DNA from: a virus | Direction: 5' to 3' (one strand) | Virus record (IMG/VR): IMGVR_UViG_3300008116_000432 | Coordinates: 1 to 30,670 of that record | Length of the DNA stretch: 30,670 bases | In this document: positions 8,501 to 30,670 of the stretch, piece after piece | Layout of the letters: every line of letters begins with the position of its first letter | Numbering within the stretch: the first letter of the stretch is position 1 | Made by a program: the position numbers and the translations under genes | Notes under the pieces: model-generated | Seen by the model: only the letters and a program-made list of their open reading frames with translations | What the model was told of the DNA's origin: nothing | Databases searched by the model: none

Positions 8501-9454
8501 ACAGTAGGTGAAACTGGTGCAATGGGTACTACCGGTACACAAGGAACTATTGGAAGTCAGGGTACCGTAGGATCTCAAGGAACACAAGGAACTATCGGTT
8601 CCCAAGGAACTAAAGGTGACACTGGCGATATTGGTACACAAGGCACTCAGGGTACACAAGGACGACAAGGTACAACCGGTACACAAGGAACTATTGGAAC
8701 TCAAGGTGCTTCAGGTACAACTGGGGATACCGGTTCACAAGGAACAATTGGTTCACAAGGAACCGTAGGATCTCAAGGAACACAAGGTACAACGGGTTCA
8801 CAAGGAACTAAAGGTGATACCGGGTCTCAAGGAACTCTTGGTACACAAGGAACACAAGGCACTCAAGGTCGTCAAGGAACTAAAGGTGACACTGGCGATA
8901 TTGGTACTCAAGGCGTACAAGGAACAACAGGCTCTCAAGGAACTAAAGGTGACACTGGCGATATTGGTACACAAGGAACCCAAGGCACTCAAGGTCGACA
9001 AGGTACAACCGGTACACAAGGAACTATTGGAACCCAAGGTACGCAAGGTACTCAGGGTACACAAGGAACGCAAGGTATTATCGGTTCAACAAACTTTCCA
9101 CTTGTATTCGATTGGTCAGGTACTGGAACACCTTCAACCGAAGCGGCCGATGTAGCAGAATGGAAATATGTAGTTGAAAATGTAACAATCTATTCAGCAT
9201 CACTATCAGCAAAAAATTTACCGAGTGGCGGCCCATTTGTAATGAAAGCCTTGAAATCAACAAACGGTGGTGCTACATTTTCAGGTACGATAGTTACAGT
9301 ATCATTACCGGATGCCGGCTTCCTTTATTATGCAGTCACAGGTTCCCGAGCAGGTCAAACTACTCTTAGTAAAGGAGATCTATTACGATTAGATACCGGT
9401 GTAGTTAACGGTGCGTCAGATTGGTCTTTTCAACTGTATACTAAAAAGACCTAA
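5504..9454 (+). CDS. Long virion fibre protein with 170-triplet collagen-like shaft
   Basis: This encodes 1316 residues. Residues 1-683 are non-repetitive and beta-rich, presumably the virion-attachment and proximal part. Residues 684-1193 are an uninterrupted run of 170 Gly-X-Y triplets (GTQGTTGTQG and similar), broken only in composition by GRQG, GHQG and charged GTKGDTG units. The last ~123 residues form a compact distal domain (FPLVFDWSGTGTP... to the C-terminal LYTKKT), probably a trimerisation or receptor-binding tip. Collagen-like triplets in phage fibres form trimeric rods. The K-G-D pattern is a known stabilising salt-bridge arrangement in collagens. An AAAGGT lies about 15 bases before the ATG, so the ribosome site is weak. 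It lies alone between DNA-metabolism genes and the NMNAT-like gene. Fibre versus whisker versus head decoration cannot be told. Confidence 0.8.
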   Translation: MLKSKRFATGLDKVYNQIPIQDTSLLSTDYFRLFDIPERLYLGKNAFRIRANSNTLVKSSLIYIDIIDAAGKTVFHEVVNFIGEDDARLIVAHIYETTTPGEATIYIAGRASVDVRNGNELAYSRDASSSDFIDNPNLIWSKRIIIIPNIQNSTELIFASPPIVRATERRERYYAFDTDPRDRRKVVTGSFKLSTTSPGVEYKYSDTLKGAVRVSEIDENIIYDPKVGPNYFESSQDLISPFKDISVIYDAGGSFDEQYVGGTLVVKGLTNQLGLDKQTIVSLGGTVPAYSCSVLEVMDAKTAKVYPPFRFDYVRDGQTNSVKKFFDIQNVTASYYSTEDAQLSQVASESFVQLDFFNLQPIAGDADKVRISYKPFGSFGEFRDIGEYKIKTQDFLVSEQIDRTKIEFVEKSVGKFKTAAEFTQYWQYVNGSKKITPVNSVIFNNQGTALSASYTSSIVTDYDYYVRPYLSINAVENTEFKLTVTTNGAESLNSNTPQIDIFISGSDVVTNILNLKNVREPIKAPLLGSYLASVSEISTPESKKFEFYFRVGSTRAIRPVFAFRDCDIVNIKNITVQPRNERGYSPNQARLILPLSSFETNTELVLNIDYYTENGIKSRIFTQLYGVYFQGFGIRRDLLSENDVIQSISGSSSDTKTRFLILSGSYNNLKQDFEIFTGSVNIQGVQGPQGTIGSQGTTGTQGTIGSQGTTGTQGTTGTQGVQGRQGTIGTQGTIGSQGIIGTQGVQGRQGTTGTQGTTGTQGTTGTQGVQGRQGTIGTQGTIGSQGTSGTNGTTGTQGTIGSQGTSGTNGTTGTQGTIGTQGTQGTQGHQGTTGTQGTVGSQGTSGTNGTTGTQGTIGTQGTQGTQGHQGTIGTQGTVGSQGASGTNGTTGSQGTQGTQGHQGTIGSQGTTGTQGTIGTQGVQGRQGATGTQGTVGETGAAGTTGTQGTIGSQGVIGTQGTQGTQGHQGTIGSQGTKGDTGSQGTQGTQGRQGTTGTQGTVGETGAMGTTGTQGTIGSQGTVGSQGTQGTIGSQGTKGDTGDIGTQGTQGTQGRQGTTGTQGTIGTQGASGTTGDTGSQGTIGSQGTVGSQGTQGTTGSQGTKGDTGSQGTLGTQGTQGTQGRQGTKGDTGDIGTQGVQGTTGSQGTKGDTGDIGTQGTQGTQGRQGTTGTQGTIGTQGTQGTQGTQGTQGIIGSTNFPLVFDWSGTGTPSTEAADVAEWKYVVENVTIYSASLSAKNLPSGGPFVMKALKSTNGGATFSGTIVTVSLPDAGFLYYAVTGSRAGQTTLSKGDLLRLDTGVVNGASDWSFQLYTKKT
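7553..9085 (+). repeat. Collagen-coding tandem repeat tract 1
   Basis: About 1.5 kb of imperfect 9- and 18-base units of the type CAAGGTACAACCGGTACA encodes the Gly-X-Y shaft of the 5504 gene. Third-codon positions vary (GGT, GGC, GGA) while Gly-Thr/Ser-Gln-Gly is kept, so selection acts on the protein. Larger blocks recur, such as the segments coding GTSGTNGTTGTQGT near 7860 and 7910, pointing to growth by internal duplication. Confidence 0.9.
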
Positions 9455-9486: not shown

Positions 9487-11886
9487 ATGGGTAATATCAT
9501 CGTAACATATGTAGGTAGATTTCAACCTTTTCACAAAGGGCATTATGCGACCTATATGCATCTTGTCAAGAAATTCGGAAAGGCGAATGTTTATATCGGA
9601 ACCTCAGATAAAGTAGAATTACCGAAATCGCCATTCGATTTCAAAGATAAAAAAACCATAATAACATCGATGTTCGGTATACCGAAGACGCAAGTGGTAC
9701 AGGTAAAAAATCCGTACCGGCCTATTGAAATTCTGAACGATTATGATGAAGACTCGGATATATTGATAACGGTTGTCGGTGAAAAAGACTCCGGCCGTTT
9801 AGGCGGTAAATATTTTTTGCCGTACACTGGTAACACTGATTTATTGCCGTTTAAACAACAGGGCTACGTGTATGTTGCTCCATCACTACCGAATGCGATA
9901 AGTGGTACTGATGTAAGAGATTGGCTTAGTATATCTGATGAAAACAACGCTAAATTGAATTTCGAAAAAGCGTATCCGAATTTCGACAAGCGCATATACG
10001 ATTTGATACGATCGAAACTCAATGTGATGAATGAAATGGCTAAGGCCGATTTAGATTCTGTGGAAAAATTCGCCGATACGAATTTAGCTCCATACGATTT
10101 CGAATTTGGTAGAGAAATCGATCATTTTTTTCAACGATTGAACGATCCAAGAAACGGCAAAGAAATTTCGTATGCGGAAATGATCGGGTTCTTTAAACGT
10201 CTCATTAGAAATAGAGCAGCGTTCGATGAATTCACTAAAAAATATTTGGAATTTGTAATTACGGATAAAAGAACAAATATCAATATACCGTTTAAAACAC
10301 AGGCGAATCGATTAATCGCAAAAACAATTATGCGAAAGCCGGCATTTAAGTCACCGGATCCTGTGTTAAATATTGAAACAGTAAAAAAAGTCGGTGACGA
10401 CTGGGTAGTGTATCCTAAAAAGGGTGGTAAACGATTAGGTACCCATGATACTAAAAAAGCGGCAATAAAACAACTGCAAGCGATTGAAATAAACAAAGAA
10501 TCGGTAGAGGATACAAAGAACGAACTCCGTAAATTAGAATCGGAGAGAAATCGTTTGTTTTCGGCACTGATGAAAATGTTTCCGAATTCACCAAAACAAA
10601 TAAAAGCTAAAGCCGAATTAGATTCTATAATGTCTAAAATAAAAAAATTGCGTACAGAAGCCTTAACCGAAAATATAATACTTGAAGGTGGTGCATATGG
10701 TCATATGGCACACCCATTCGATATCGACATGAATTTAACATTTGGCGATCTCAAACAAATTGTAAAGTCAGCATTAACTGGCGAACTCGAATTAGCCCGT
10801 GAGAAAACAGATGGTCAGGCACTTGCGATAAGTTGGAAAAATGGTGCATTGATTTCTGCAAGAAATAAAGGTCACTTAGTAAACGCAGGTGAAATGGCAA
10901 TGACTGAGCAAGATCTCATCGATAAATTTGCAGGACGTGGTGCATTATCGGATGCGTTTACATTTGCAATAAAGGATTTAAAATCTGCAATAATACAATT
11001 ATCTAATGCGGAACGCGAATCGATATTCAAAGAGGGTAAAGCGTTCATGAATTGCGAAGTGATATATCCTGAAAATACAAATGTCATTCCATATGGGCAA
11101 TCGCTTTTAGTATTCCACGGTACAATGGAATACGATGAACGAGGGAATCCGATAAGCGAAGATCCTCAAGCAGGTTTTAAACTTGCCGATATGATCGAAA
11201 AGGTAAATGCCAATATTCAAAGTCGTTTTAAATTACAAGGACCTCCTGTACAAACTTTACCGAAGAGTCAAGATCTAATGGCGAAACAACCTGATTATAT
11301 TACTAAGATATCGAAACTGCAAAAAGAATTCGGATTAAACGATGCGAATGGTGTTGAAGACTATCATCAAGCATGGTGGGAACAATGGATCAATAAAAAC
11401 GCTCCGAAAGATTTGTCACCAGATATACGTGACGGTTTAGTTAAACGATGGGCGTTTTTCGATAAGTCGTTCCGATTAAATCAGATCACCGATCCTGACA
11501 TCCGTCAATGGGCCGAAAAAACAGATAAACTCGACTACCAGAAAATTTCAAAAACAAATCTTATGAAATTCGAAGAAATATTTTTAGGCGTTGGCGCCGA
11601 TGTACTTTCCTTCATGTCATCGGTACTTGTTGTAAATCCTGAAGAGGCGAAACGTGATATTGTCGACAAACTTAAAAACGCGATATCTTCAATACGTGCA
11701 ACTGGTGATGCTAAAAATTTAATTAAACTCGAATTGGAATTGAAGCGACTCGAATCATTAGGTGGTTTTGAAAAGATTGTACCTAATGAGGGCATTGTAT
11801 TTAATTATAAAGGTAGTACATATAAACTGACCGGTGCGTTTGCACCGTTAAATCAAATAATGGGCGTGTTTACATTTACACGTTAA
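9487..11886 (+). CDS. Fusion: NMNAT-like nucleotidyltransferase plus ligase-like (KxDG) domain
   Basis: This encodes 799 residues in at least three parts. Residues 1-150 are an HIGH-family nucleotidyltransferase: G10-RFQPF-H16-K-G-H19 and I138-S-G-T-D-V-R144, the NMNAT/NadR-type ATP-binding motifs. Residues ~300-335 (WVVYPKKGGKRLGTHDTKKA) resemble a short module I associate with phage head proteins, and a coiled coil follows. Residues ~403-799 look like a polynucleotide ligase/capping-type nucleotidyltransferase. Motif I is E-K440-T-D442-G443; a motif III-like segment has E524 (MNCEVIYP) and VFHG at 542-545; motif IV is E768-G-I-V-F; motif V is K780-L-T-G. About 220 helical residues separate motifs III and IV, longer than usual. 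L-T-E395 and I-L-E400 at the junction resemble gp21 cleavage sites. The family assignment of the first domain is firm; the ligase reading is my inference from motif order. Confidence 0.75.
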   Translation: MGNIIVTYVGRFQPFHKGHYATYMHLVKKFGKANVYIGTSDKVELPKSPFDFKDKKTIITSMFGIPKTQVVQVKNPYRPIEILNDYDEDSDILITVVGEKDSGRLGGKYFLPYTGNTDLLPFKQQGYVYVAPSLPNAISGTDVRDWLSISDENNAKLNFEKAYPNFDKRIYDLIRSKLNVMNEMAKADLDSVEKFADTNLAPYDFEFGREIDHFFQRLNDPRNGKEISYAEMIGFFKRLIRNRAAFDEFTKKYLEFVITDKRTNINIPFKTQANRLIAKTIMRKPAFKSPDPVLNIETVKKVGDDWVVYPKKGGKRLGTHDTKKAAIKQLQAIEINKESVEDTKNELRKLESERNRLFSALMKMFPNSPKQIKAKAELDSIMSKIKKLRTEALTENIILEGGAYGHMAHPFDIDMNLTFGDLKQIVKSALTGELELAREKTDGQALAISWKNGALISARNKGHLVNAGEMAMTEQDLIDKFAGRGALSDAFTFAIKDLKSAIIQLSNAERESIFKEGKAFMNCEVIYPENTNVIPYGQSLLVFHGTMEYDERGNPISEDPQAGFKLADMIEKVNANIQSRFKLQGPPVQTLPKSQDLMAKQPDYITKISKLQKEFGLNDANGVEDYHQAWWEQWINKNAPKDLSPDIRDGLVKRWAFFDKSFRLNQITDPDIRQWAEKTDKLDYQKISKTNLMKFEEIFLGVGADVLSFMSSVLVVNPEEAKRDIVDKLKNAISSIRATGDAKNLIKLELELKRLESLGGFEKIVPNEGIVFNYKGSTYKLTGAFAPLNQIMGVFTFTR

Positions 11887-13594: not shown

Positions 13595-15190
13595 ATGTCA
13601 GAAAAACAACCGAACATACGTGATATTGTAACCCAAGAACTTGCACGATGTAGTGTCGATTATAATTATGCGATAAAAAAATACTGCAAGATCGAACACC
13701 CTATTCAGGGCAAAATTCCGTTTCAACTATTCCCGTTTCAAACACGGGCCCTTGAAGAAATAATATCGCATAAATTCAATATAATATTGAAGTCCCGTCA
13801 AATGGGAATTTCAACACTGGTTGCTGCATATGCTTTAATGAATATGCTTTTCCGTGAAAACTACAAAGTACTCGTAATCGCAACAACACAAGATGTTGCA
13901 AAGAACCTTGTACATAAAGTAAAGGTAATGAATACGAACTTGCCGTCATGGATGAAAACGCGTGTAGTAGATGATAATAAACTACAATTATCATTCGCAA
14001 ACGGTTCAACAATTAAAGCTGTATCATCCTCACCAACAGCAGGACGTTCCGAAGCACTTTCACTATTGATTATAGATGAGGCTGCATTTGTTGACAACAT
14101 CGATCGTATTTGGGCATCGGCACAGATGACATTAGCTACAGGTGGAGATGCAATATTATTATCGACTCCAAATGGTGTAGACAACTTATTTCACCAATTA
14201 TGGGTCGATGCAGAAATACAAAAAGCACCAGACGGTTTAGATCCGTTTAATCCGATAAAACTTAATTGGGATCTACATCCTGAACGAGATCAAAAATGGC
14301 GTGACCAACAGACTCTCCATTTAGGTGAAAGAATGGCGGCACAGGAATGTGACTGCGACTTTTTGACATCAGGTCATTCGGTTATTGAAGGTGATGTTTT
14401 AAAATGGTACAACGAAAACATGGTTACCGATCCATTAGAACGCAGAGGGATCGATGGCGATTATTGGATATGGAAATATCCTGATTATACACGATCTTAT
14501 GTTGTATCGGTAGACGTTGCTCGTGGCGATGGTGCCGACGATTCTGCAATTGAAGTTTTTGATGTCGAATCGATGGAACAAGTTGCCGAGTATATTGGAA
14601 AAGTATCGCCACGAGATTTAGGTAGAATGGCGGTATCGATCGCAACCGAATACAACACGGCAATGCTTGTAATTGAAAATAAAAATATCGGTTATGATAC
14701 TGTACAAGAAGCGATCGACATGAATTATTCGAATATTTTTTATAGTTACAGACAGGATGTATATGTCGATCCGATAAAACATATTTCGAAAGGATACGAT
14801 TTGAAATCGAAAAAGGATATGGTTCCTGGTTTCACAACAACTACCGCAAATCGTCCAATGATCGTATCAAAAATCGAGCGATATTTCAATGAAAAACTAA
14901 TTATAGTAAGGTCGAAGAGGCTAATATCACAATTGCTTGTTTTTGTATGGCTAAACGGTAAAGCACAGGCAAGACCAGGCCGTAAAGACGATGCAGTATT
15001 ATCGACAGGTATTGCGTTATTTGTTCGTGATACTGCACTGAAACTACGTGAGATTGGTTTAGATATGACCAGAAAAACATTACAACATATGCACAAACGA
15101 GTGTATACACCGAATGCGAATGGGGATAATTCAAAATGGACAATGGATGACGGAAAAGGTAATACTATATCGACACGGTGGTTACTATAA
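13595..15190 (+). CDS. 17: Terminase large subunit (T4 gp17-like packaging motor)
   Basis: This encodes 531 residues, a little shorter than T4 gp17 (610). The ATPase domain shows a Walker A-like S67-R-Q-M-G-I-S-T74, Walker B L157-L-I-I-D161-E162 and coupling motif S190-T-P-N-G194. The RNase H-fold nuclease shows the acidic residues D307 (VSVDVARGDG), E361 (LVIENKNIG) and D465-D466 (GRKDDAVLS), matching the spacing of the gp17 catalytic triad. It translocates DNA into the prohead through the portal and cuts the concatemer. The start has no Shine-Dalgarno. The gene sits 12 bases before the portal gene; in T4 the sheath and tube genes (18, 19) lie between these two, so that part of the order differs. 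Confidence 0.93.
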   Translation: MSEKQPNIRDIVTQELARCSVDYNYAIKKYCKIEHPIQGKIPFQLFPFQTRALEEIISHKFNIILKSRQMGISTLVAAYALMNMLFRENYKVLVIATTQDVAKNLVHKVKVMNTNLPSWMKTRVVDDNKLQLSFANGSTIKAVSSSPTAGRSEALSLLIIDEAAFVDNIDRIWASAQMTLATGGDAILLSTPNGVDNLFHQLWVDAEIQKAPDGLDPFNPIKLNWDLHPERDQKWRDQQTLHLGERMAAQECDCDFLTSGHSVIEGDVLKWYNENMVTDPLERRGIDGDYWIWKYPDYTRSYVVSVDVARGDGADDSAIEVFDVESMEQVAEYIGKVSPRDLGRMAVSIATEYNTAMLVIENKNIGYDTVQEAIDMNYSNIFYSYRQDVYVDPIKHISKGYDLKSKKDMVPGFTTTTANRPMIVSKIERYFNEKLIIVRSKRLISQLLVFVWLNGKAQARPGRKDDAVLSTGIALFVRDTALKLREIGLDMTRKTLQHMHKRVYTPNANGDNSKWTMDDGKGNTISTRWLL

Positions 15191-15202: not shown

Positions 15203-17053
15203 ATGTCAGCAATAGGAAAAGTAATACAGCGACTATTTAGTCAAAAAATAATCATAAAAAAAACACCGGGTGATCGACTCCGTGTAATCGATTATGATAA
15301 ATTACAGTCGATCGGTAATAATATAACGCCGAAATACGGTGGTATAAAATCGTCAAGATTTGGTGATAGCCAATACGGTACCGGTTATTCTTCACAGACC
15401 GAACAGGTCGATGCGGCAAGAATGGCTATGTATCTTGATTATGAAAGTATGGAATCGGATCCGATCTTAGCATCTGCATTAGACATATATGCAGATGAGG
15501 CTACTGTAAAAGACGCACATGGTAACCTATTGACAATACGGTGCGATGATGCAGAAAAGAAAAAAATACTTAATAACCTATATTACGATATTTTAAATGT
15601 CGATTTTAATCTGTGGCATTGGACAAGATCGCTATGTAAATATGGCGATTTATTCTTATACTTGAATACAGTACCTTCAGTAGGTATTGTGGATGCAGTG
15701 CCGATTCACCCATCACTGATTAAACGTGATGACTATGCAGGTGATAATCAAAATCTCACACAATATATTTATGAGGGTGAGACGATGTTTAATTATCAGA
15801 AAGCAAGAAGCGTTTTCGATTATCATGAGATCGCACATTTTCGTGTACTGACCGATACAAACTTTTTACCGTATGGTAAATCGTTATTAGAAGGCGCAAG
15901 AAAAGTTTGGAAACAATTGACCATGATGGAAGATGCGATGTTGATACATCGTATTATGAGAGCACCTGAGAGACGTATATTTAAAATCGATGTCGGAAAT
16001 TTACCACCTGAAGCAATCGACGGATACATGGAAGACGTTGCGAATACAATGAAAAAGGTACCATACATCGATCCTCAAACTGGCGACTACAATTTACGCT
16101 TCAACCTCATGAATATGCTTGAGGATTTCTATTTACCGACAAGAGGTGCTGATAGTGGTACTGGAATCGAATCGTTACCTGGTTTGACAAATGAAGGTAG
16201 TTTAGAGGATATCGAATATTTGCAGAAAAAACAAATGGCGTATTTGAAAATACCGAAAGCGTATTTAGGTTATGATGAAGGTGTCGACGGTAAAGGAACA
16301 CTTGCGGCCGAAGATATAAAATTTGCAAGATTCATAGAAAGAATTCAAAAAATTGTAGTATCTGAATTGCAGAAAATTGGTCACATACATTTATACATGC
16401 AAGGTTTCCGTGATGAAGATCTTGTAGATTTCTCTTTGGAATTGTCGACACCATCTTTGTTGTATGAACGTCAGAAAGTCGATCTGTTAAATGAGAAACT
16501 GAATCTGATTCAGAACATAAAAGAAAACAAATTATTCAGCCGTAAATGGGTTTACGAGAATCTATTCAATATGACACATGAGGAATGGGAAGAGCAGCAA
16601 GAACTGATGATCGAAGACCTTAAACGTGAATTCAGAGAAGAGCAGATTAAATCTGAAGGTAATGACCCGGCGAAAACTGGAAGATCATTTGGTACACCTC
16701 ACGATATCGTATCTATGCAAATCGCATCGAGTATGGGTATTAAACATGCAGAGGAATCTGAAGCAGGTGACCGAATTACAAAACTCTATAAGAAAGACAA
16801 ACGTGAAGAAAACACTGGTAGACCTTTAAAGCACGGATCGTTTGAACGTGATAAAGATCCGTTATATGGTAGAGACCCGTCAGGCAGAAAGGAATTCGCA
16901 AACGGGTTTTTAAATGCTGGTAAAGATTTGGAACTTATAGCGAAATCGTTCGGTAAAAAAGTTGTTGCACTCAATGAAACGAAAAAAAACGATTCAGATA
17001 TCGATAATATTAAGATGCTTGATGAAAATTCATTGTTAGATGAATTAGTTTAA
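15203..17053 (+). CDS. 20: Portal protein (T4 gp20-like)
   Basis: This encodes 616 residues; T4 gp20 has 524. The N-terminal region carries the typical portal stretch ESDPILASALDIYADEAT (residues 84-101). Further on are MEDAMLIHRIMRAPERRIF and the tunnel region with long helices, then LPGLTNEGSLEDIEYLQKK. The portal forms the dodecameric ring at the unique vertex through which terminase pumps DNA and to which the tail joins. Compared with T4 the extra length is a charged C-terminal extension ending in LDENSLLDELV, with an L590-N-E592 motif that could be a prohead-protease site. It follows terminase by 12 bases with no Shine-Dalgarno and precedes small head-cassette genes. Confidence 0.92.
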   Translation: MSAIGKVIQRLFSQKIIIKKTPGDRLRVIDYDKLQSIGNNITPKYGGIKSSRFGDSQYGTGYSSQTEQVDAARMAMYLDYESMESDPILASALDIYADEATVKDAHGNLLTIRCDDAEKKKILNNLYYDILNVDFNLWHWTRSLCKYGDLFLYLNTVPSVGIVDAVPIHPSLIKRDDYAGDNQNLTQYIYEGETMFNYQKARSVFDYHEIAHFRVLTDTNFLPYGKSLLEGARKVWKQLTMMEDAMLIHRIMRAPERRIFKIDVGNLPPEAIDGYMEDVANTMKKVPYIDPQTGDYNLRFNLMNMLEDFYLPTRGADSGTGIESLPGLTNEGSLEDIEYLQKKQMAYLKIPKAYLGYDEGVDGKGTLAAEDIKFARFIERIQKIVVSELQKIGHIHLYMQGFRDEDLVDFSLELSTPSLLYERQKVDLLNEKLNLIQNIKENKLFSRKWVYENLFNMTHEEWEEQQELMIEDLKREFREEQIKSEGNDPAKTGRSFGTPHDIVSMQIASSMGIKHAEESEAGDRITKLYKKDKREENTGRPLKHGSFERDKDPLYGRDPSGRKEFANGFLNAGKDLELIAKSFGKKVVALNETKKNDSDIDNIKMLDENSLLDELV

Positions 17054-18894: not shown

Positions 18895-19503
18895 ATGAAA
18901 AACTTATTGGTAGAATACGGCAATTTCATTTATACACGTGACTCGATAACCGAATCGAAGTACGGCGACAATTCTTTTATTGTCGAAGGTGTATTGCAAC
19001 GTGCTGGTGTAAAAAACCAAAATGGGAGAATATATCCGAAACCGATACTCGAACGTGAAATCGAACGATACCGTAAAGTAGAAATTGCACAGAAGAGGGC
19101 GTTGGGGGAATTAGATCATCCTGAATCGAGTGTAGTGAATTTACGCAATGTATCCCATAATATTCTGAATGTGGAATGGAAAGGCGATGACGTATACGGT
19201 AAAGTTCAGATTCTGAATACACCGTCCGGTAATATACTTAAAGAACTATTCAAAGCCGGTGTTACGTTGGGTATTAGTTCAAGAGGTATGGGAAGTGTGC
19301 GTCAATTAGATGAAACTACCGTAGAGGTGCAACCAGATTTTACACTTGTCGGATGGGATTTCGTTTCAAATCCTTCAACTCAAGGCGCGTTCATGCAACG
19401 TGTAAACGAATCAGCAAATCCGAATACTGAAAGTTACGATATCGCTAATGTTCTCATACGCGATATTATATGCGAACTTTCTGGTGTATGTTGTTTAAAA
19501 TAA
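18895..19503 (+). CDS. 21: Prohead core protease (T4 gp21-like)
   Basis: This encodes 202 residues, close to T4 gp21 (212). The hallmark motifs are present: G71-E-L-D-H75-P, carrying the catalytic histidine, and G126-I-S-S-R-G131, carrying the catalytic serine. Both fit the herpesvirus-assemblin-like serine protease fold of phage prohead proteases. A conserved NQNGRIYPKP segment (41-50) and the VGWDFVSNPS region also fit. The enzyme acts inside the prohead, cutting scaffold, capsid and internal proteins, in T4 after (I/L)-x-E. Its own N-terminus has L5-V-E7 and I18-T-E20, possible self-cleavage sites. It precedes the scaffold and capsid genes, as in T4, with extra small genes in between. Confidence 0.9.
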   Translation: MKNLLVEYGNFIYTRDSITESKYGDNSFIVEGVLQRAGVKNQNGRIYPKPILEREIERYRKVEIAQKRALGELDHPESSVVNLRNVSHNILNVEWKGDDVYGKVQILNTPSGNILKELFKAGVTLGISSRGMGSVRQLDETTVEVQPDFTLVGWDFVSNPSTQGAFMQRVNESANPNTESYDIANVLIRDIICELSGVCCLK

Positions 19504-19894: not shown

Positions 19895-20389
19895 GTGCAA
19901 AATAAAATCCGAACATATATACGACAAGCAGTTAGCGAAGTTATAAACGAAAAATCGGTATCACAAGACCAACAACAAGCAGCCGGTGCAGCATTGGCAG
20001 CAAAAAGAGGCGACATTCCAGTATCTTCATTAAAAGGTGCATCTAAAGAAATGTACAAAATGTCAGAAAAGGAATTAGAAAAATTCGCTAAAACAAAACA
20101 TAAAGGTTTGCCGGTTAAAAAGGAAGCGTTAGATTTAAGTCATGATGAAGATGAACTCGAAATGATAAAATCGGATTTATATTCAATAGCAAAAGACGCA
20201 GCCGAATTATGCAAACTCGTAAAGAATTTACAGTCACCGGTCGATTTTCCTCACTGGTGGCAAACTAAAATAACAGATGCTAAACATAATGTAAGTGCAG
20301 CTGCAGAATATTTAGAATACGAAATCGAAAAACAAAATCCTTCAGCATACACTGCAATACCAGAAGCGAAGAAAAAACGGAAATGGTGA
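19895..20389 (+). CDS. DUF3008-like protein in the head cassette (GTG start)
   Basis: This encodes 164 residues from a GTG two bases after the preceding stop; no in-frame ATG is near. The N-terminal helix (NKIRTYIRQAVSEVINEK) ends in I17-N-E19. Residues ~22-75 match the DUF3008 pattern: QQQAAGAALAAKRGDIP, LKGASKEMYKMSEKELEKFA and TKHKGLPVKK. DUF3008 is a short module found in bacteria and phages with no established function; here it is extended. The C-terminal ~90 residues form a separate helical segment (SDLYSIAKDAAELCKLVKNL, WWQTKITDAKHNVSAAAEYL) and a basic tail. The helix before the DUF could be a head-targeting peptide removed by the protease, which is speculative. Confidence 0.75.
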   Translation: MQNKIRTYIRQAVSEVINEKSVSQDQQQAAGAALAAKRGDIPVSSLKGASKEMYKMSEKELEKFAKTKHKGLPVKKEALDLSHDEDELEMIKSDLYSIAKDAAELCKLVKNLQSPVDFPHWWQTKITDAKHNVSAAAEYLEYEIEKQNPSAYTAIPEAKKKRKW

Positions 20390-20390
20390 T

Positions 20391-20717
20391 ATGAAAAATA
20401 GATCGAATCAAACATCGGTAATTCGTGAAAAAATTTCAAAGGTTGTCGAACTGATGACTCGACAGTATTTAGACGAGACTAAAATGAAATCTGGTATACC
20501 ACAATCATCTAATCCGAAACTTAACGAGTATGGTCGTCAAATTGCCACACAAATAGTACAAGATACCGTCGATGATTTTTTAATGGAAACTGAAATGTTG
20601 ATCGATGAGATGTACGGTGAAATTCCAATTGATGAATTTAAAAACAGATGGAATGCGACTGCGAAAAATTTCGAAAAGAAATTTGGGAATATTTTGAAAA
20701 ATATGAGTACTCGTTAA
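20391..20717 (+). CDS. Small helical phage protein, unknown function
   Basis: This encodes 108 residues, starting one base after the upstream TGA (TGATATG), so probably coupled. It is predicted all-helical: a basic N-terminal helix (VIREKISKVVELMTRQYLDE), a middle acidic stretch (DDFLMETEMLIDEMYGEIP) and a basic C-terminal helix. There is no signal peptide, membrane segment or motif I recognise. An overlapping open frame begins at 20648 in a different phase, but that extension is not needed for the downstream S21-like gene. Location between the prohead protease and scaffold suggests a head-related role. Confidence 0.7.
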   Translation: MKNRSNQTSVIREKISKVVELMTRQYLDETKMKSGIPQSSNPKLNEYGRQIATQIVQDTVDDFLMETEMLIDEMYGEIPIDEFKNRWNATAKNFEKKFGNILKNMSTR

Positions 20718-20749
20718 AATCTAAAATACTACTTATTAAAAATTCTACA

Positions 20750-20980
20750 ATGAACAAAAAAGAAAAACGGTTTTTATCACTACTGCCTGGTGGTATTGGT
20801 GCAAGAGTTGTTGATGGCGATTTAGGTTTAGCGATTCGTGTTTGGAAGCAGGAACTGAAAAACTCAGGAAAGGTCAAAACACTATTCGATAAACGTGAAT
20901 ACGTTAAACCTTCAATACTCAGAAAAGAGTTACTTGACAAAGCAAAACACAGAAACAAATTTATAAAACACGATCGCTAA
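20750..20980 (+). CDS. rpsU: Ribosomal protein bS21-like
   Basis: This encodes 76 residues from the ATG at 20750. The frame stays open back to 20648, but that part overlaps the upstream gene. The core DLGLAIRVWKQELKNSGKV, followed by LFDKREYVKPSILRKELLDK and AKHRNK, aligns by eye with bS21. The shared features are an acidic start, ALRRFKR-type helix, K-x-G turn, REYxKPS and a basic C-terminal helix. The KPS is typical of Bacteroidota S21. bS21 sits on the 30S platform near the 16S rRNA 3' end and affects initiation. Phage-encoded bS21 is known from marine phages, including pelagiphages. It lies just before the scaffold leader, so it may be expressed late with the head genes. The assignment is by motif; the extra N-terminal residues (SLLPGGIGARVV) are unusual. 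Confidence 0.7.
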   Translation: MNKKEKRFLSLLPGGIGARVVDGDLGLAIRVWKQELKNSGKVKTLFDKREYVKPSILRKELLDKAKHRNKFIKHDR

Positions 20981-21111
20981 AATCGAGTTATTTCTATTTT
21001 GCAAAATATATATAGTATTATATCGAATACTAATATTCGGTCCCTCTATTATAGAACACACCTATTAAGATTCTAAATAATCTTAAATTACAAAAATCAA
21101 GGAAATTTTGT
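20981..21111 (+). promoter_or_regulatory. Leader of scaffold-capsid operon with two hairpins
   Basis: This 131-base gap is the longest noncoding stretch in the head cassette and holds no gene. It is AT-rich, with TTGCAA (20999-21004) followed by TATATA/TATTAT runs that could be a promoter. Two perfect small inverted repeats follow: CGAATA-CTAA-TATTCG (21024-21039) and TTAAGATT-CTAAAT-AATCTTAA (21065-21086). AAGGA at 21099-21103, eight bases before the scaffold ATG, is a clear ribosome site. Neither hairpin has a T-run, so these are not intrinsic terminators. A promoter plus mRNA-stabilising or regulatory leader is inferred. Confidence 0.5.
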
Positions 21112-22029
21112 ATGAAATTAGATTCAAATCTTTTGAACGAGGCTATCGCTGATGCAAAAGCAGTTAGAGAAACCGCAGTTCAAACGGCAATCGGTCGACT
21201 GAAAGAAGCATTCGAACCGACGGTAAGACAATTAATCACTCAGAAACTTTCAGAAGAAGAAGGCATGGATGACGAAGAAGACGTAATGCCAACCGATACT
21301 GAAGACACAATGGGCGAAGAGTATTCAGATGAAACGTATGACGACGCGAATCCTGATTATGACGGACTCGCAGAAGAAGACGACATGGTGCCTGCAATGG
21401 ATGACGAAGAAGAACCAGCAGATGACGAAATGGACCTTGCGGAAATTCTTGCAGAACTTGAAGGTGAAGAAGGCGGCGATAGTATGGACATGGAAGAACC
21501 GGAAGATGACGAAGAAGAACCAGATGATGAAGACGACTTAATGAGTGGACTCGATGAGATTCTTGCGGAACTCGAAGGTGACGCGGAAGATGATATGAAG
21601 TACGAAGAAGACGATATGGAAACAGAAAAAGAAATGCAGTCTGAAAACCGTCGTTTACGCAGAGAGTTATCTGAAGCGAAAGCCCAACTTAAAGAGGCTT
21701 ACCGTGCAATTACAACACAGAAAAACGCAATTAACGAAGTAAATCTTTTGAATTCTAAATTGTTGTTTTTGACTAAGATTACAAGTGCTAATAAACTATC
21801 TGCACAGAAGCAAGTGAAAATACTTGAGGCATTCGACAGGGCACAAACGATCAGAGAAGTTAAATTGGTATATGCTACGATTTGTGAAAGTTTGGACAGA
21901 CAGGCTAAAACAAATACGAAAAACCAAATTGTAGAATCTGCATCGAAGCCTATGCGTTCTATTAAGAACACACCGAATAATCAGTATGCGTTCGCTTCAA
22001 GATGGAAAGAATTAGCAGGTATTAAGTAA
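21112..22029 (+). CDS. 22: Prohead scaffold/core protein (T4 gp22-like)
   Basis: This encodes 305 residues; T4 gp22 has 269. The middle (about residues 45-175) is extraordinarily acidic, with long Asp/Glu runs such as MDDEEDVMPTDTEDTMGEEY and DEEEPADDEMDLAE. It is flanked by an N-terminal helix (LLNEAIADAKAVRETAVQTA) and a C-terminal helical region (ENRRLRRELSEAKAQLKEAY). Acidic composition, coiled-coil C-terminus and position just before the capsid gene are the hallmarks of T4-type scaffolds, which fill the prohead core and are degraded by gp21. L8-N-E10-A is a possible cleavage site. The acidic segment contains a repeated LAEILAELEGE/LDEILAELEGD block. The start is marked by AAGGA. Confidence 0.88.
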   Translation: MKLDSNLLNEAIADAKAVRETAVQTAIGRLKEAFEPTVRQLITQKLSEEEGMDDEEDVMPTDTEDTMGEEYSDETYDDANPDYDGLAEEDDMVPAMDDEEEPADDEMDLAEILAELEGEEGGDSMDMEEPEDDEEEPDDEDDLMSGLDEILAELEGDAEDDMKYEEDDMETEKEMQSENRRLRRELSEAKAQLKEAYRAITTQKNAINEVNLLNSKLLFLTKITSANKLSAQKQVKILEAFDRAQTIREVKLVYATICESLDRQAKTNTKNQIVESASKPMRSIKNTPNNQYAFASRWKELAGIK

Positions 22030-22040
22030 ATTTAAAAACT

Positions 22041-22046
22041 AAAGGA
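22041..22046 (+). promoter_or_regulatory. Strong Shine-Dalgarno of the capsid gene
   Basis: AAAGGA lies five bases before the ATG at 22052, complementary to the 16S anti-Shine-Dalgarno. Most tightly packed genes in this window lack such a site, so its presence marks a gene expected to be translated very strongly. Confidence 0.7.
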
Positions 22047-22051
22047 AAAGC

Positions 22052-23677
22052 ATGAATATTGATAATTTATTGCCAAAGAACGCACACGTTCAAAGGCGTA
22101 AAGATGTAGTAGCACTGACCTCAAAGTGGGAAAAAACAGGGCTATTAGAAAACTTGTCAGATCTTGACAAAGGAAATGTTGCTCAACTCTTAGAAAACCA
22201 AGCGAAGCAATTGGTAGTTGAAGCAAACAGAACAGGAACAGCTGCCGGTTCAGAAGAATGGGCTGGTGTTGCGTTACCGTTGATTAGAAGAATTTTCGGT
22301 GAAATCACTGCAAAGGACTTTGTTTCGGTACAGCCGATGAATTTACCTTCAGGACTCGTGTTCTGGTTGGAATTCAAGTATGGTACTGGACAACCAGGTT
22401 TCGCAAGTGGTTCTGGTAAAGATTCACAAGAAGACTCGATTTGGGGTGTAACTGATGCATCTAAGGGTGAAGCAGTTGCAACCGGTGGTCTTTATGGTGC
22501 AGGACGATTCGCATATTCAATCAACGATTACAGTAAGACTGGACTTATCGCAAGTTCATCTGGTACGCCAACTGCAACTAAAGGCGTATTCTCAAGTTGT
22601 AATCTGTCATCAGATGTAAACTTCGATAGCGAATTCTCAAGTTCAGTTGTTGACTCTGCAAAAATCAAAAAATTGACTATCGCAGTTAGTTCTTTGACAA
22701 ATCCTGATTTGGAAGGTGTACGTGCATTTACGGTTAGTGGTACAGGAATCGACACGCAGTTCAATCAGTTCACTTCGATCAATGCTGCAAAAACTCAAAT
22801 TACATTTGTAATTTCTGGTTCAGCAACACAGATCGCTAACTTGGCAGTTTACTATCAGAAGCAACCTACTGATGTTACAAGAGGTGATTTTGAAGAGAAC
22901 AAAACTGGTCAAGATCCATTAGATATTCCTGAATTGAACCTTGAGTTCCATAGCCAAGCGTTAACTGCAAAGACACGTAAACTGAAGGCAATGTGGACAC
23001 CTGAATTCGCACAGGACATCAACGCATACCAGAACATCGATGCAGAAGCAGAATTAACCGGTATCCTTGGTGAATATGTTGCGAGAGAAATCGATTTGGA
23101 AATCTTAGACATGTTGAGATTGAACGCTCAAACGACTAAATATTGGTCAGCACGTTTAGGATACGAATATAATCCTGATACAAACGCATTCAGTCAAACA
23201 GCTGCAAACGCTGCTGCATACAATCAAGGTACATGGTTCCAAACATTGGGAACTAAGATCCAAGCAGTATCTAACGAAATCGATAGATTGACGTTTAGAG
23301 GTGGTGCAAACTTCTTGGTTACCTCACCAACTGTAGCAACTGTACTCGAATCGATTCCTGGTTATGCAGCCGACACAGACGGAAGCAGAAATCAGTTTAG
23401 TATGGGATCTCACAAGATCGGTACAATCAATAATCGTTTCACTGTATACAAATCACCTTACATGAAAGAAAATGTAATTTTGATGGGATACAGAGGAACA
23501 CAATATTTGGAAACAGGTGCCGTATACGCTCCATACATTCCATTGATTATGACACCGCTTGTACACGATCCTGATAACTTTACACCAAGAAAAGCCGTGA
23601 TGACAAGATACGCAAAAGAAATGCTGCGTCCTGAATTCTACGGTAAGATCTTTGTTGAAGGTTTGAATACTATCTAA
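22052..23677 (+). CDS. 23: Major capsid protein (T4 gp23-like)
   Basis: This encodes 541 residues, near T4 gp23 (521). The T4-family core is clear: LENQAKQLVVEA, then WAGVALPLIRRIFGEITAKD and FVSVQPMNLPSGLVFWLEFK at about residues 70-110. Near the C-terminus are NRFTVYKSPYMKENVILMGY and an ending typical of the family. It forms the hexamers of the prohead shell (HK97 fold). gp21 probably removes an N-terminal propeptide: L31-L-E33 or L46-L-E48 are candidate sites, both inferred. The gene is followed at once by a strong terminator, and preceded by the best ribosome site in the cassette, both fitting very high expression. No separate vertex-protein (gp24) gene is seen directly after it. Confidence 0.94.
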   Translation: MNIDNLLPKNAHVQRRKDVVALTSKWEKTGLLENLSDLDKGNVAQLLENQAKQLVVEANRTGTAAGSEEWAGVALPLIRRIFGEITAKDFVSVQPMNLPSGLVFWLEFKYGTGQPGFASGSGKDSQEDSIWGVTDASKGEAVATGGLYGAGRFAYSINDYSKTGLIASSSGTPTATKGVFSSCNLSSDVNFDSEFSSSVVDSAKIKKLTIAVSSLTNPDLEGVRAFTVSGTGIDTQFNQFTSINAAKTQITFVISGSATQIANLAVYYQKQPTDVTRGDFEENKTGQDPLDIPELNLEFHSQALTAKTRKLKAMWTPEFAQDINAYQNIDAEAELTGILGEYVAREIDLEILDMLRLNAQTTKYWSARLGYEYNPDTNAFSQTAANAAAYNQGTWFQTLGTKIQAVSNEIDRLTFRGGANFLVTSPTVATVLESIPGYAADTDGSRNQFSMGSHKIGTINNRFTVYKSPYMKENVILMGYRGTQYLETGAVYAPYIPLIMTPLVHDPDNFTPRKAVMTRYAKEMLRPEFYGKIFVEGLNTI

Positions 23678-26675: not shown

Positions 26676-29600
26676 ATGCCAAATTGGAAAAAAGTAATCG
26701 TATCGGGTTCCGATGCGCGTTTAAATAGTCTATTTGTAACAAACGCAGTTACAGCCTCGTATGGAAAGTTCACGAAAGGTGCAACTCTTACAGGGTCCTT
26801 ATTAGTAACACAATCGCACATTTCCACTGTCGATTATATCGATTTCACTACGACAGCTACTCCTCCATTTTTAACTGGAAGGCTCCAATGGATCGACGAC
26901 ACTAAAACTTTAAATATCGATACCGATATTAATGGTTTTTCAATTGAAATCGGTCATCAAAATGCAGTTAGGGTACGCAATACAAACCCGTTTACACTTA
27001 CTAAAGGAATAATTGTCTATATTAATGGTGAGAGTGGTCAGAGACCGACCGTAGCTACGGCAAGTTGGACAGATGATACAGATTCAGCGACAACTTTAGG
27101 ATTTGTAGCACAAAATATATCTACGAATGGCACCGGTTATGTTATAACAAACGGACTGATACGAGGCATAAATACCACAGCATTCGTACCAGGAACGATG
27201 TTATATTTATCGGCAAGTGGACAATACACATCGACTATTCCAATAGCACCTTTCCATGGTGTAAGATTAGGCCGAACAATCACACAGGCAGTTGATGGTA
27301 CGATTTATGTGAACGTGATAAATGGTTATGAACTAGGTGAACTACATGATGTATTAGAAATAAACAGGAAAAACGGCGATTTAATAATTTTTGATAGCAG
27401 TTCAAGAGTTTATAGAAATTCAAAAATACTATCAGGATCGTACGGAGTTTCCGGTTCTTTAAATATTTCGCAAGGCCTGACAGGTAGTACTGCGAAATTC
27501 ACTGCAATACCTAATGGTACAAACGAAACAAATGTTCTTGTTTTAGACGGAACAGGAAATGTAAAATACAGAACCAATTTAAGTTTACAAGGCACACAAG
27601 GAACACAAGGAACACAAGGTACTATTGGTTTACAAGGCACACAAGGAACCGTAGGAAGTCAGGGTACTACGGGTTCTCAAGGTACACAAGGAACACAAGG
27701 TCGACAAGGCACACAAGGTATCACTGGTTCACAAGGAACCGTAGGTTCTCAAGGTACTATTGGTAGCCAAGGCACACAAGGAACTCAGGGTACTACGGGC
27801 TCTCAAGGCACGATTGGTTCACAAGGAACCGTAGGATCTCAAGGAACACAAGGTACTACTGGGTCTCAAGGAACAATTGGTACTACCGGTAGCCAAGGCA
27901 CTCAAGGTACTCAGGGCTCACAAGGCACACAAGGTACTACCGGTTCACAAGGTACAATCGGATCTCAGGGTACTATAGGTACACAAGGCACACAAGGTAC
28001 TCAAGGTACTACGGGATCCCAAGGTACAATTGGTACGACCGGTTCACAAGGTACCTTAGGATCGCAAGGCACAATTGGTTCTCAAGGCACTCAGGGTACA
28101 CAAGGCCGACAAGGTACTACTGGAAGTCAGGGTACCCAAGGCACAACGGGTTCACAAGGAACTACGGGTTCACAAGGAACGCAAGGAACTCAGGGCTCAC
28201 AAGGCACACAAGGCATCACTGGGTCTCAAGGCACAACGGGTTCACAAGGTACAATTGGTAGCCAAGGTATACAAGGAACTCAGGGTACTACGGGTTCTCA
28301 AGGTACACAAGGCACAACGGGCTCACAAGGTACAATTGGTAGCCAAGGAACTATTGGTTCTCAAGGTACACAAGGCACACAAGGAACTCAGGGTACTACG
28401 GGCTCTCAAGGCACGATTGGTTCACAAGGTACCGTAGGAAGTCAAGGAACAATTGGAAGTCAGGGTACTATTGGTAGCCAAGGAACTATTGGTTCTCAAG
28501 GTACCGTAGGATCGCAAGGAACTATTGGTAGCCAAGGAACTCAGGGTATTACGGGTTCTCAAGGAACTATTGGTACACAAGGAACACAAGGTATCACCGG
28601 TTCTCAAGGTACTATTGGTAGCCAAGGTATACAAGGAACTACAGGTTCCCAAGGTACTATTGGTAGCCAAGGTACACAAGGAACTACAGGTTCCCAAGGT
28701 ACGATTGGTACTACGGGTTCACAAGGTACCGTAGGATCTCAAGGAACACAAGGAACTCAAGGTACCGTAGGAAGTCAAGGAACTATTGGTTCTCAAGGTA
28801 CACAAGGCACACAAGGTCGGCAGGGTACAACGGGCTCACAAGGAACGATTGGTTCACAAGGTACAACGGGTTCACAAGGCACACAAGGTACTGTCGGTTC
28901 ACAAGGTACAACGGGTTCACAAGGCACAATTGGTACAACTGGAAGTCAAGGAACTCAGGGAACTACGGGTTCACAAGGAACTATTGGCAGCCAAGGTACA
29001 CAAGGAACTACGGGCTCTCAAGGTACTATTGGTTCTCAAGGAACGCAAGGCACTCAGGGTACACAAGGCACTACTGGATCTCAAGGTACTATTGGTACAA
29101 CTGGAACACAAGGTACCGTAGGTAGTCAGGGTACGATCGGTTCTCAAGGCACACAAGGTACAACGGGTTCACAAGGAACTCAAGGTCCACAAGGCATCAC
29201 TGGGTCTCAAGGTACTACCGGTTCACAAGGAACAATTGGTTCACAAGGAACCGTAGGATCTCAAGGAACACAAGGTACTACCGGTAGCCAAGGAACCGTG
29301 GGAAGTCAGGGAACGATTGGGTCTCAAGGAACACAAGGTGTGCAAGGTCGACAAGGAACACAAGGCACACAAGGTATCACTGGGTCTCAGGGTACAATAG
29401 GAAGTCAAGGAACTATTGGTAGTCAGGGAACGATTGGTAGTCAAGGAACACAAGGTACACAAGGCACACAAGGTACTACCGGTTCACAAGGTACAATCGG
29501 CAGTCAAGGAACAATTGGTAGCCAAGGAACAATTGGTTCACAAGGCACACAAGGTACCGTAGGATCTCAAGGTACTATTGGGTCACAGGGTACACAAGGC

Positions 29601-30670
29601 ACTACGGGTTCACAAGGAACCGTAGGTTCTCAAGGTACAATCGGCAGTCAAGGAACAATCGGCAGTCAAGGAACACAAGGAACTCAGGGTATTACGGGTT
29701 CACAAGGTACTATTGGGTCTCAAGGAACAATTGGTAGTCAGGGTACTACGGGCTCTCAAGGAACCGTAGGTTCTCAAGGTACAATCGGCAGTCAAGGAAC
29801 ACAAGGCGTACAAGGTCGACAAGGAACCCAAGGAACTACGGGCTCTCAAGGCACAATAGGTTCACAAGGTACAATTGGTAGTCAAGGAACGCAAGGAACT
29901 CAGGGTATTACGGGTTCTCAAGGTACACAAGGTACTACCGGTAGCCAAGGTACAATTGGTTCGCAAGGCGCAACGGGTTCACAAGGGACAGTTGGTTCAC
30001 AAGGAACAATTGGTACAACCGGTAGCCAAGGAACTCAGGGTACACAAGGCACTACTGGATCTCAAGGTACAATTGGTTCACAAGGAACGCAAGGTATCAC
30101 TGGGTCTCAGGGTACAATAGGAAGTCAAGGAACAATTGGTAGCCAAGGAACAACGGGTTCACAAGGTACTATTGGTAGCCAAGGTACACAAGGAACCGTA
30201 GGAAGTCAGGGTACTACGGGTTCTCAAGGAACCCAAGGCACACAAGGTCGACAAGGCACAACCGGTACACAAGGAACTATTGGAACCCAAGGATCTCAAG
30301 GCACACAAGGTATCACTGGGCCTCAGGGTACAATAGGAAGTCAAGGAACTATTGGTTCACAAGGAACGCAAGGTACACAAGGTATCACTGGGTCTCAGGG
30401 TACAATAGGAAGTCAAGGAACCGTAGGTTCTCAAGGTACAATCGGTTCACAAGGAACGCAAGGAACTCAGGGTACTACGGGTTCACAAGGAACTATTGGT
30501 ACACAAGGCACAACGGGGTCTCAAGGAACAGTTGGAAGTCAGGGTACACAAGGCATAACGGGCTCTCAAGGAACACAAGGTGTGCAAGGTCGACAAGGAA
30601 CCCAAGGAACAACTGGAAATATAAGCAATTATACGTTAGACGGTAATTTTGCGATAAACTATACACTGAC
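26676..30670 (+). CDS. Giant collagen-like fibre protein, C-terminus beyond the window
   Basis: This frame is open from the ATG to the window edge, so 1331 codons are visible. Residues 1-305 are the N-terminal part. W4-K-K-V-I-V-S-G-S matches the 24996 fibre anchor, beta-rich segments follow, and NVLVLDGTGNVKYR near residue 290 matches the repeated motif there. Residues 306-1314 are one continuous Gly-X-Y tract (about 336 triplets, mainly GTQGTT, GSQGTI, GSQGTV), roughly twice the shaft of the 5504 fibre. It lacks the charged KGD units seen in that fibre. After the tract begins a distal domain (NISNYTLDGNFAINYTL...) which is cut off. AGGGA precedes the start. A long trimeric rod presenting a receptor-binding tip is the likely form. 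Confidence 0.85.
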   Translation, partial: MPNWKKVIVSGSDARLNSLFVTNAVTASYGKFTKGATLTGSLLVTQSHISTVDYIDFTTTATPPFLTGRLQWIDDTKTLNIDTDINGFSIEIGHQNAVRVRNTNPFTLTKGIIVYINGESGQRPTVATASWTDDTDSATTLGFVAQNISTNGTGYVITNGLIRGINTTAFVPGTMLYLSASGQYTSTIPIAPFHGVRLGRTITQAVDGTIYVNVINGYELGELHDVLEINRKNGDLIIFDSSSRVYRNSKILSGSYGVSGSLNISQGLTGSTAKFTAIPNGTNETNVLVLDGTGNVKYRTNLSLQGTQGTQGTQGTIGLQGTQGTVGSQGTTGSQGTQGTQGRQGTQGITGSQGTVGSQGTIGSQGTQGTQGTTGSQGTIGSQGTVGSQGTQGTTGSQGTIGTTGSQGTQGTQGSQGTQGTTGSQGTIGSQGTIGTQGTQGTQGTTGSQGTIGTTGSQGTLGSQGTIGSQGTQGTQGRQGTTGSQGTQGTTGSQGTTGSQGTQGTQGSQGTQGITGSQGTTGSQGTIGSQGIQGTQGTTGSQGTQGTTGSQGTIGSQGTIGSQGTQGTQGTQGTTGSQGTIGSQGTVGSQGTIGSQGTIGSQGTIGSQGTVGSQGTIGSQGTQGITGSQGTIGTQGTQGITGSQGTIGSQGIQGTTGSQGTIGSQGTQGTTGSQGTIGTTGSQGTVGSQGTQGTQGTVGSQGTIGSQGTQGTQGRQGTTGSQGTIGSQGTTGSQGTQGTVGSQGTTGSQGTIGTTGSQGTQGTTGSQGTIGSQGTQGTTGSQGTIGSQGTQGTQGTQGTTGSQGTIGTTGTQGTVGSQGTIGSQGTQGTTGSQGTQGPQGITGSQGTTGSQGTIGSQGTVGSQGTQGTTGSQGTVGSQGTIGSQGTQGVQGRQGTQGTQGITGSQGTIGSQGTIGSQGTIGSQGTQGTQGTQGTTGSQGTIGSQGTIGSQGTIGSQGTQGTVGSQGTIGSQGTQGTTGSQGTVGSQGTIGSQGTIGSQGTQGTQGITGSQGTIGSQGTIGSQGTTGSQGTVGSQGTIGSQGTQGVQGRQGTQGTTGSQGTIGSQGTIGSQGTQGTQGITGSQGTQGTTGSQGTIGSQGATGSQGTVGSQGTIGTTGSQGTQGTQGTTGSQGTIGSQGTQGITGSQGTIGSQGTIGSQGTTGSQGTIGSQGTQGTVGSQGTTGSQGTQGTQGRQGTTGTQGTIGTQGSQGTQGITGPQGTIGSQGTIGSQGTQGTQGITGSQGTIGSQGTVGSQGTIGSQGTQGTQGTTGSQGTIGTQGTTGSQGTVGSQGTQGITGSQGTQGVQGRQGTQGTTGNISNYTLDGNFAINYTL
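27591..30617 (+). repeat. Collagen-coding tandem repeat tract 2
   Basis: This 3,027-base tract is an unbroken series of 9-base units of the CAAGGTACTATTGGTTCA kind, giving about 336 Gly-X-Y triplets without a frame break. Synonymous changes are frequent. Longer blocks recur, such as those coding GVQGRQGTQGT and GITGSQGTIGSQGT, so copy number probably changes by recombination. Confidence 0.9.

Follow-up and report, generated by a model that had tools for sequence, protein, structure and literature searches.

Among the relatives of the virus studied here, the presence of a phage-encoded ribosomal protein bS21 was associated with the use of Shine-Dalgarno (SD) start signals. Across 136 dereplicated relatives, SD starts were found on 52% of the genes in those with bS21 (n = 95) versus 6% in those without it (n = 41) (p = 3e-19). 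The SD fraction had quartiles of 0.42 to 0.65 in the former and a maximum of 0.29 in the latter, and a plain motif count gave much the same picture (51% versus 7%). The level reached by the bS21-less relatives equals the background and that of Flavobacterium. This association is what looks new in our analysis and the part worth following; a literature search, partial in its coverage, returned no paper that we recognized as reporting it.

The relatives were collected by capsid searches of viral contigs and named phages, which provided 269 capsid-family loci, reduced to 168 representatives. Of these, 158 had enough genes: 95 carried bS21, 41 lacked it (with at least 4.5 kb seen upstream), and 22 were left unscored. 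Several phages on contigs ending just upstream of the capsid gene were first scored as bS21-less and then set aside. Should bS21 lie elsewhere in some of the fragment contigs scored as bS21-less, the association would be weakened, not created. Gene calling followed a simple longest-ORF rule, and SD signals were scored by the pairing of the anti-SD CCUCCUUA (RNAduplex) with the 17 bases from -20 to -4, using a stretch from -60 as the control.

In a FastTree phylogeny of the capsid protein, the bS21 state changed at least eight times, four of these changes being forced by well-supported branches, and SD use tracked the changes. For instance, L438 and L439, which have bS21 and an SD fraction of 0.33, are nested in a bS21-less group at 0 to 0.13, while L447 and L472, without bS21 and at 0.06 to 0.07, are nested in a bS21-bearing group. 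Over the four independent well-supported pairs, too few for a sign test to become significant (p = 0.125), SD use went in the same direction in 3.7 of 4 on average, and the phylogenetic independence of the association is suggestive.

The window, that is, the whole stretch of DNA analyzed, is a virus record of 30,670 bases and represents a fragment of a gp23-type myovirus. Its genes follow a T4-like order, in which bS21 sits inside the block of terminase, portal, protease, and capsid genes:

13595 to 15190, + strand, terminase large subunit (phrog_2, E 7.5e-43)
15203 to 17053, + strand, portal protein (phrog_213, E 1.3e-74)
18895 to 19503, + strand, prohead core protease, S77 (PF03420, E 3.8e-32; phrog_207)
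20750 to 20980, + strand, phage bS21 gene (rpsU-like), 76 amino acids (ORF, PF01165 match, same-place homologues, helical model)
21112 to 22029, + strand, probable prohead scaffold gene (place, acidic coiled-coil-like composition, counterpart in relatives)
22052 to 23677, + strand, major capsid protein, Gp23 family (PF07068, E 6.4e-72; phrog_138)

The bS21 gene lies between the prohead protease and the scaffold gene, on the same strand as both, and is followed by a gap of 131 bases. The first-pass annotation had placed it next to a scaffold-capsid operon, and both genes are indeed found directly downstream, although the scaffold gene had no profile match. By capsid similarity, the nearest isolate is Microcystis phage Mel-JY01 (56%), in which an RpsU is annotated at the same place, followed by Flavobacterium phage immuto (52%), which has no RpsU there. 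A 75-amino-acid gene of immuto in a similar place was considered and ruled out as bS21.

Other parts of the window also had recognizable features. Two very long proteins (5504 to 9454 and 26676 to 30668, the latter continuing past the end of the window) contain collagen-like G-T-Q-G-x-Q-G repeats and are probably fiber or appendage proteins. The 799-amino-acid protein at 9487 to 11886 resembles nicotinamide-nucleotide adenylyltransferases over its first 70 residues, to which a long remainder is fused; in Mel-JY01, a gene annotated as cytidylyltransferase-like lies upstream of that for the terminase. A small protein two genes ahead of bS21 (19895 to 20389) contains DUF3008 (PF11450, E 3.8e-24), and the product of 924 to 1370 has, by eye, the look of a GIY-YIG-type endonuclease.

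The bS21 reading frame runs on the + strand from an ATG at 20750 to a stop ending at 20980, and its translation, MNKKEKRFLSLLPGGIGARVVDGDLGLAIRVWKQELKNSGKVKTLFDKREYVKPSILRKELLDKAKHRNKFIKHDR, includes both segments by which it had been recognized by eye, RVWKQELKNSGKV and REYVKPS. A longer in-frame start (ATG at 20648, 110 amino acids) was rejected, as it overlaps the preceding gene and the proteins of the relatives begin at MNKK/MSKK. The search with the Pfam profile Ribosomal_S21 (PF01165) detected similarity at an E value of 5.2e-6, aligning residues 20 to 69 with profile positions 4 to 54 of 55, at a score of 26.5 bits, 0.5 bit short of the curated cutoff of 27. The NCBIfam equivalog model TIGR00030 stayed under its cutoff (E 0.0075), and no good match was found in PHROGs. 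The homologue at the same place in contig L006, 46 to 49% identical, passed the Pfam cutoff with 47.7 bits, and a PDB search with a profile of four phage homologues retrieved bS21 chains only, with E values down to 2e-11. The AlphaFold2 model (mean pLDDT of 88) consists of helices at residues 25 to 39, 41 to 48, and 54 to 75 joined by coil, as expected of bS21. The first seven matches in a fold search with this model were all mitochondrial bS21, with weak E values, as can be anticipated when a protein has no compact fold. Together, these lines bear out the initial identification: the gene is confirmed at the level of sequence and predicted structure as encoding a bS21 homologue, borderline by its own profile score and secured through its relatives, for which we infer a ribosomal function. 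An identical bS21 is encoded on four other contigs, one of them of 66 kb. The comparison with L487 gave a dN of ca. 0.36 with dS near saturation, and closer pairs of relatives gave dN/dS ratios of ca. 0.06 to 0.24, by which measure the phage gene is under purifying selection.

Alignment with host bS21, as had been proposed, gave an aligned core with two features of interest:

20750 to 20788, + strand, N-terminal extension of ca. 13 residues relative to Bacteroidota host bS21 (alignment)
20948 to 20950, + strand, codon of His67, aligned with Tyr54 of Flavobacterium johnsoniae bS21, which stacks on the 16S 3' tail (alignments)

The F. johnsoniae protein (PDB 7JIL) shares with that of the window the core fold, the KPS motif, and an aromatic position 54, but its N terminus is shorter by 13 residues and it has Tyr54 where the phage has His. 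Ahead of the position aligned to its Ala15, the window protein has 27 residues; the number was 14, with few exceptions, in 107 distinct Bacteroidota host bS21s and had a median of 31 in 95 distinct phage bS21s. Position 54 was aromatic in 89 of the 107 host proteins and Arg in the other 18, and in the phages it was mostly aromatic, Arg, Lys, or Leu. Tyr, Phe, or His was present in 55 of the 95 phage representatives, including the window, which combines His67 with Asn69; His at this position also occurs in two Flavobacteriales hosts. In 39 of these 55, the aromatic residue is followed two residues later by Gln, as is usual in Bacteroidia-type hosts. According to PMC9976891, an aromatic residue at position 54 is a feature of Bacteroidia only, and the A-x-[YFH]-x-Q signature of the relatives together with His67 of the window would fit a host of this class. 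Among other Bacteroidota hosts, SD starts were found on 2% of 55 genes for Tyr54 versus 57% of 14 genes for Arg54. Along these loci (L258 to L279), a small sample, Arg in place of Tyr54 goes with SD signals in the neighboring genes.

As to the flavobacterial host considered in the first-pass annotation, the residues fit Bacteroidia, but no host link was found. When the capsid protein and profile were searched against ca. 395 Bacteroidota genomes (four draws), the one match was to a mixed bin, G514. This 2-Mb Flavobacteriales bin contains three capsid-family phage contigs (loci L579 to L581 and L584 to L587), of which two have both bS21 and SD starts and the third lacks both. The two with the gene are rich in SD signals, belong to the Leu54 kind, and lack the extension; theirs are the only bS21 genes in the bin, whose mixed content does not allow a host to be named. 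Bacteroidetes-type promoter motifs failed to discriminate hosts, since they were enriched in Flavobacterium loci and not in immuto, a true Flavobacterium phage.

In the window itself, SD starts amounted to 24%, and in the 66-kb sister contig to 26%, with controls of 8 to 11%. The virus is thus below its relatives in SD use (24 to 26% versus ca. 51 to 52%). Even so, a genome with SD-free starts, the mark of a Bacteroidia-type bS21, was not what we found, with 24% in the window versus 8% in its control, whereas SD signals were present on 4% of the genes both in Flavobacterium loci and in phage immuto. The sites around bS21 were as follows:

20724 to 20749, + strand, start region of the bS21 gene, without SD (anti-SD pairing of +1.7 kcal/mol)
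21099 to 21104, + strand, SD-like AAGGAA before the scaffold gene (-5.4 kcal/mol)
22042 to 22047, + strand, SD-like AAGGAA before the capsid gene (-5.6 kcal/mol)

Genes were then classified as early or late type according to their resemblance to genes annotated in immuto and Mel-JY01, a labeling that does not come from expression. On this basis, SD signals in bS21-bearing phages were found on 50 of 108 late-type genes (46%) versus 16 of 76 early-type genes (21%) (p = 5e-4), and in two bS21-less phages they stayed at 0 to 6%, early and late alike. In the virus of the window, SD signals preceded 5 of 13 late genes (capsid, scaffold, a gp25-like gene, and two other baseplate-type genes) and none of the three early ones (primase, SbcC-like, and QueD-like genes). 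Part of this late excess could reflect stronger expression of late genes.

The start of the bS21 gene departs from this trend. Within the phages that combine an aromatic position 54 with the extension, SD signals preceded the bS21 gene in 1 of 54 cases versus 395 of 768 for other genes (p = 6e-15). In Flavobacterium, a strong SD was present before rpsU in 79 of 79 cases (median of -11.5 kcal/mol), and that of F. johnsoniae, unlike the phage gene of the window, has one, which serves autoregulation (PMC9976891). In the Lys54 phages of the Mel-JY01 group, an SD before bS21 was frequent. Half of the bS21 genes of the aromatic-54 type with the extension had AGTTA just ahead of the ATG, compared with <4% of other genes, among which some bS21 genes are still counted. 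A conserved AATAAGTTAT stands directly ahead of many phage bS21 ATGs (for example, those of L455, L510, L516, and L371) and is rare at other genes; it possibly represents an element of the start region or of a promoter. The SD-free start meets what a switch in start selection would need, and it would also release the gene from the control circuit of the host.

Phage bS21 genes beside capsid genes are already known (Mizuno 2019; Al-Shayeb 2020; Chen 2022), and the idea that they shift mRNA choice is not new either (the same studies and McNutt 2023). Mizuno 2019 described phage bS21 and found that one of them, from Pelagibacter phage HTVC008M, enters Escherichia coli ribosomes (PMC6375957); HTVC008M is, like ours, a myovirus, but its protein is of the alphaproteobacterial type, as is its host. 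The N-terminal extensions noted in rpS21 of huge phages (Al-Shayeb 2020; PMC7162821) resemble that of the window and were proposed to serve competition or to favor phage mRNA, although these phages belong to other lineages, and two of them sampled here, with a Bacteroidia-like bS21, had SD starts on only 4% of their genes. For huge phages, Watson 2020 examined whether S21 goes with the ribosome binding sites and detected no clear link (PMC7550191). The bS21 genes of lake Bacteroidetes phages (clades a to e) described in Chen 2022 (PMC9723584), where phage bS21 is transcribed late, share with the window the TerL, portal, protease, and capsid neighbors, the aromatic residue at 54, and a predicted late role. 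In those phages, bS21 and the structural genes are on different strands, as opposed to the same strand in the window and its relatives, and the complete genomes measure 293 to 331 kb; the text consulted reports no analysis of phage SD use. The RpsU of Mel-JY01 (PP395634) is equally located between protease and scaffold/capsid but is of the Lys54 type, is preceded by an SD, and comes from a phage recorded from a cyanobacterium. The F. johnsoniae ribosome holds its 16S tail in a pocket of bS21, bS18, and bS6, and a C-terminal deletion of bS21, Y54A, or depletion of the protein led to more translation of SD-led reporters (PMC9976891).

Our preferred reading, tentative at a probability of roughly 0.45, is that the phage bS21 is made late, replaces host bS21 on the 30S subunit, and biases initiation toward late messages. 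It would account together for the link between bS21 and SD use, the late SD signals, the SD-free start of the bS21 gene, and the known site of the protein at the anti-SD tail. The protein would be produced together with the late structural genes and would displace its host counterpart on the 30S platform, beside the anti-SD tail. Two steps can be envisaged: the SD-free phage gene would be readable by the unmodified, SD-blind host ribosome, and the incorporated product would then free the anti-SD for pairing, giving preference to the SD-led late genes (capsid, scaffold, and tail tube). What we infer is the incorporation, the release of the anti-SD, an advantage for the phage, and a host of the Bacteroidia type. 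The broader proposition, that bS21 turns SD-blind Bacteroidia ribosomes into SD-reading ones and that its gain and loss drive the gain and loss of SD signals throughout the lineage, is a possibility that we rate below even odds. The earlier suggestion that a phage bS21 could alter which messages are favored late in infection is plausible and has comparative support, in that SD use tracks bS21 and concentrates in late genes. Some observations go against such a switch. The retained aromatic residue, thought to block the anti-SD, argues against a simple loss of blocking. Three bS21-bearing relatives without a long extension (L009, L153, and L130) use little SD, and two unrelated huge phages with a Bacteroidia-like bS21 have 4% SD starts. 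Late genes, being highly expressed, may carry SD signals for that reason alone. The N-terminal extension was discarded as a general enabler of SD use, since bS21 phages without it (L160, L391, and a Leu54 group) are SD users too.

A serious rival, and a real possibility, is that SD use mirrors the host: the bS21 phages would infect SD-using bacteria and their bS21-less sisters SD-blind Bacteroidia, with the phage protein replacing host bS21 for competition, supply, or defense evasion. The SD use of Arg54 Bacteroidota hosts (57% of 14 genes) fits this explanation, as do the Arg54 phages, which are SD-rich too, the combination of Lys54 and SD starts in Mel-JY01 with its cyanobacterial record, and the annotated Vibrio, Pseudomonas, and Pelagibacter phages that also carry S21 genes. 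However, 55 phage bS21s have an aromatic position 54, 39 of them with Gln56 too, and hosts so marked are SD-blind; the avoidance of SD by the bS21 gene itself (1/54) is also left unexplained. Within the Flavobacteriales bin, which looks mixed, the two SD-rich bS21 phage contigs stand beside the SD-free bS21-less one, and an SD-free host-like contig is present as well.

Escape from host control seems unlikely. Here, the phage bS21 would complete host-like ribosomes late in infection, when host bS21 runs short, its SD-free start evading the SD-based autoregulation of rpsU and message choice staying unchanged. The contrast between the strong, autoregulatory SD of Flavobacterium rpsU and the SD-free phage genes fits it, as does the retained aromatic residue at 54; yet SD starts across late genes together with bS21 are not predicted, and the extension, like the distance between the phage and host proteins, points to a role beyond supply. 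We consider it very improbable that the protein is a bS21-like RNA-binding protein acting in the virion or off the ribosome. Its score 0.5 bit under the Pfam cutoff and its place among head genes would suit such a role, and packaging in the particle is raised as a possibility in Chen 2022 (PMC9723584), but the relatives retain the 16S-contacting C-terminal signature, and incorporation into ribosomes is known for another phage bS21 (PMC6375957).

Earlier work proposed a preferential translation of phage messages and left the signal unnamed. The association between bS21 and SD use provides a concrete and testable one, SD-led versus SD-free messages, and sister phages with and without the gene constitute a natural experiment. 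If the switch toward late messages is true, this would be a virus that, through the exchange of a single small protein, alters the rule by which the ribosome of its host initiates.
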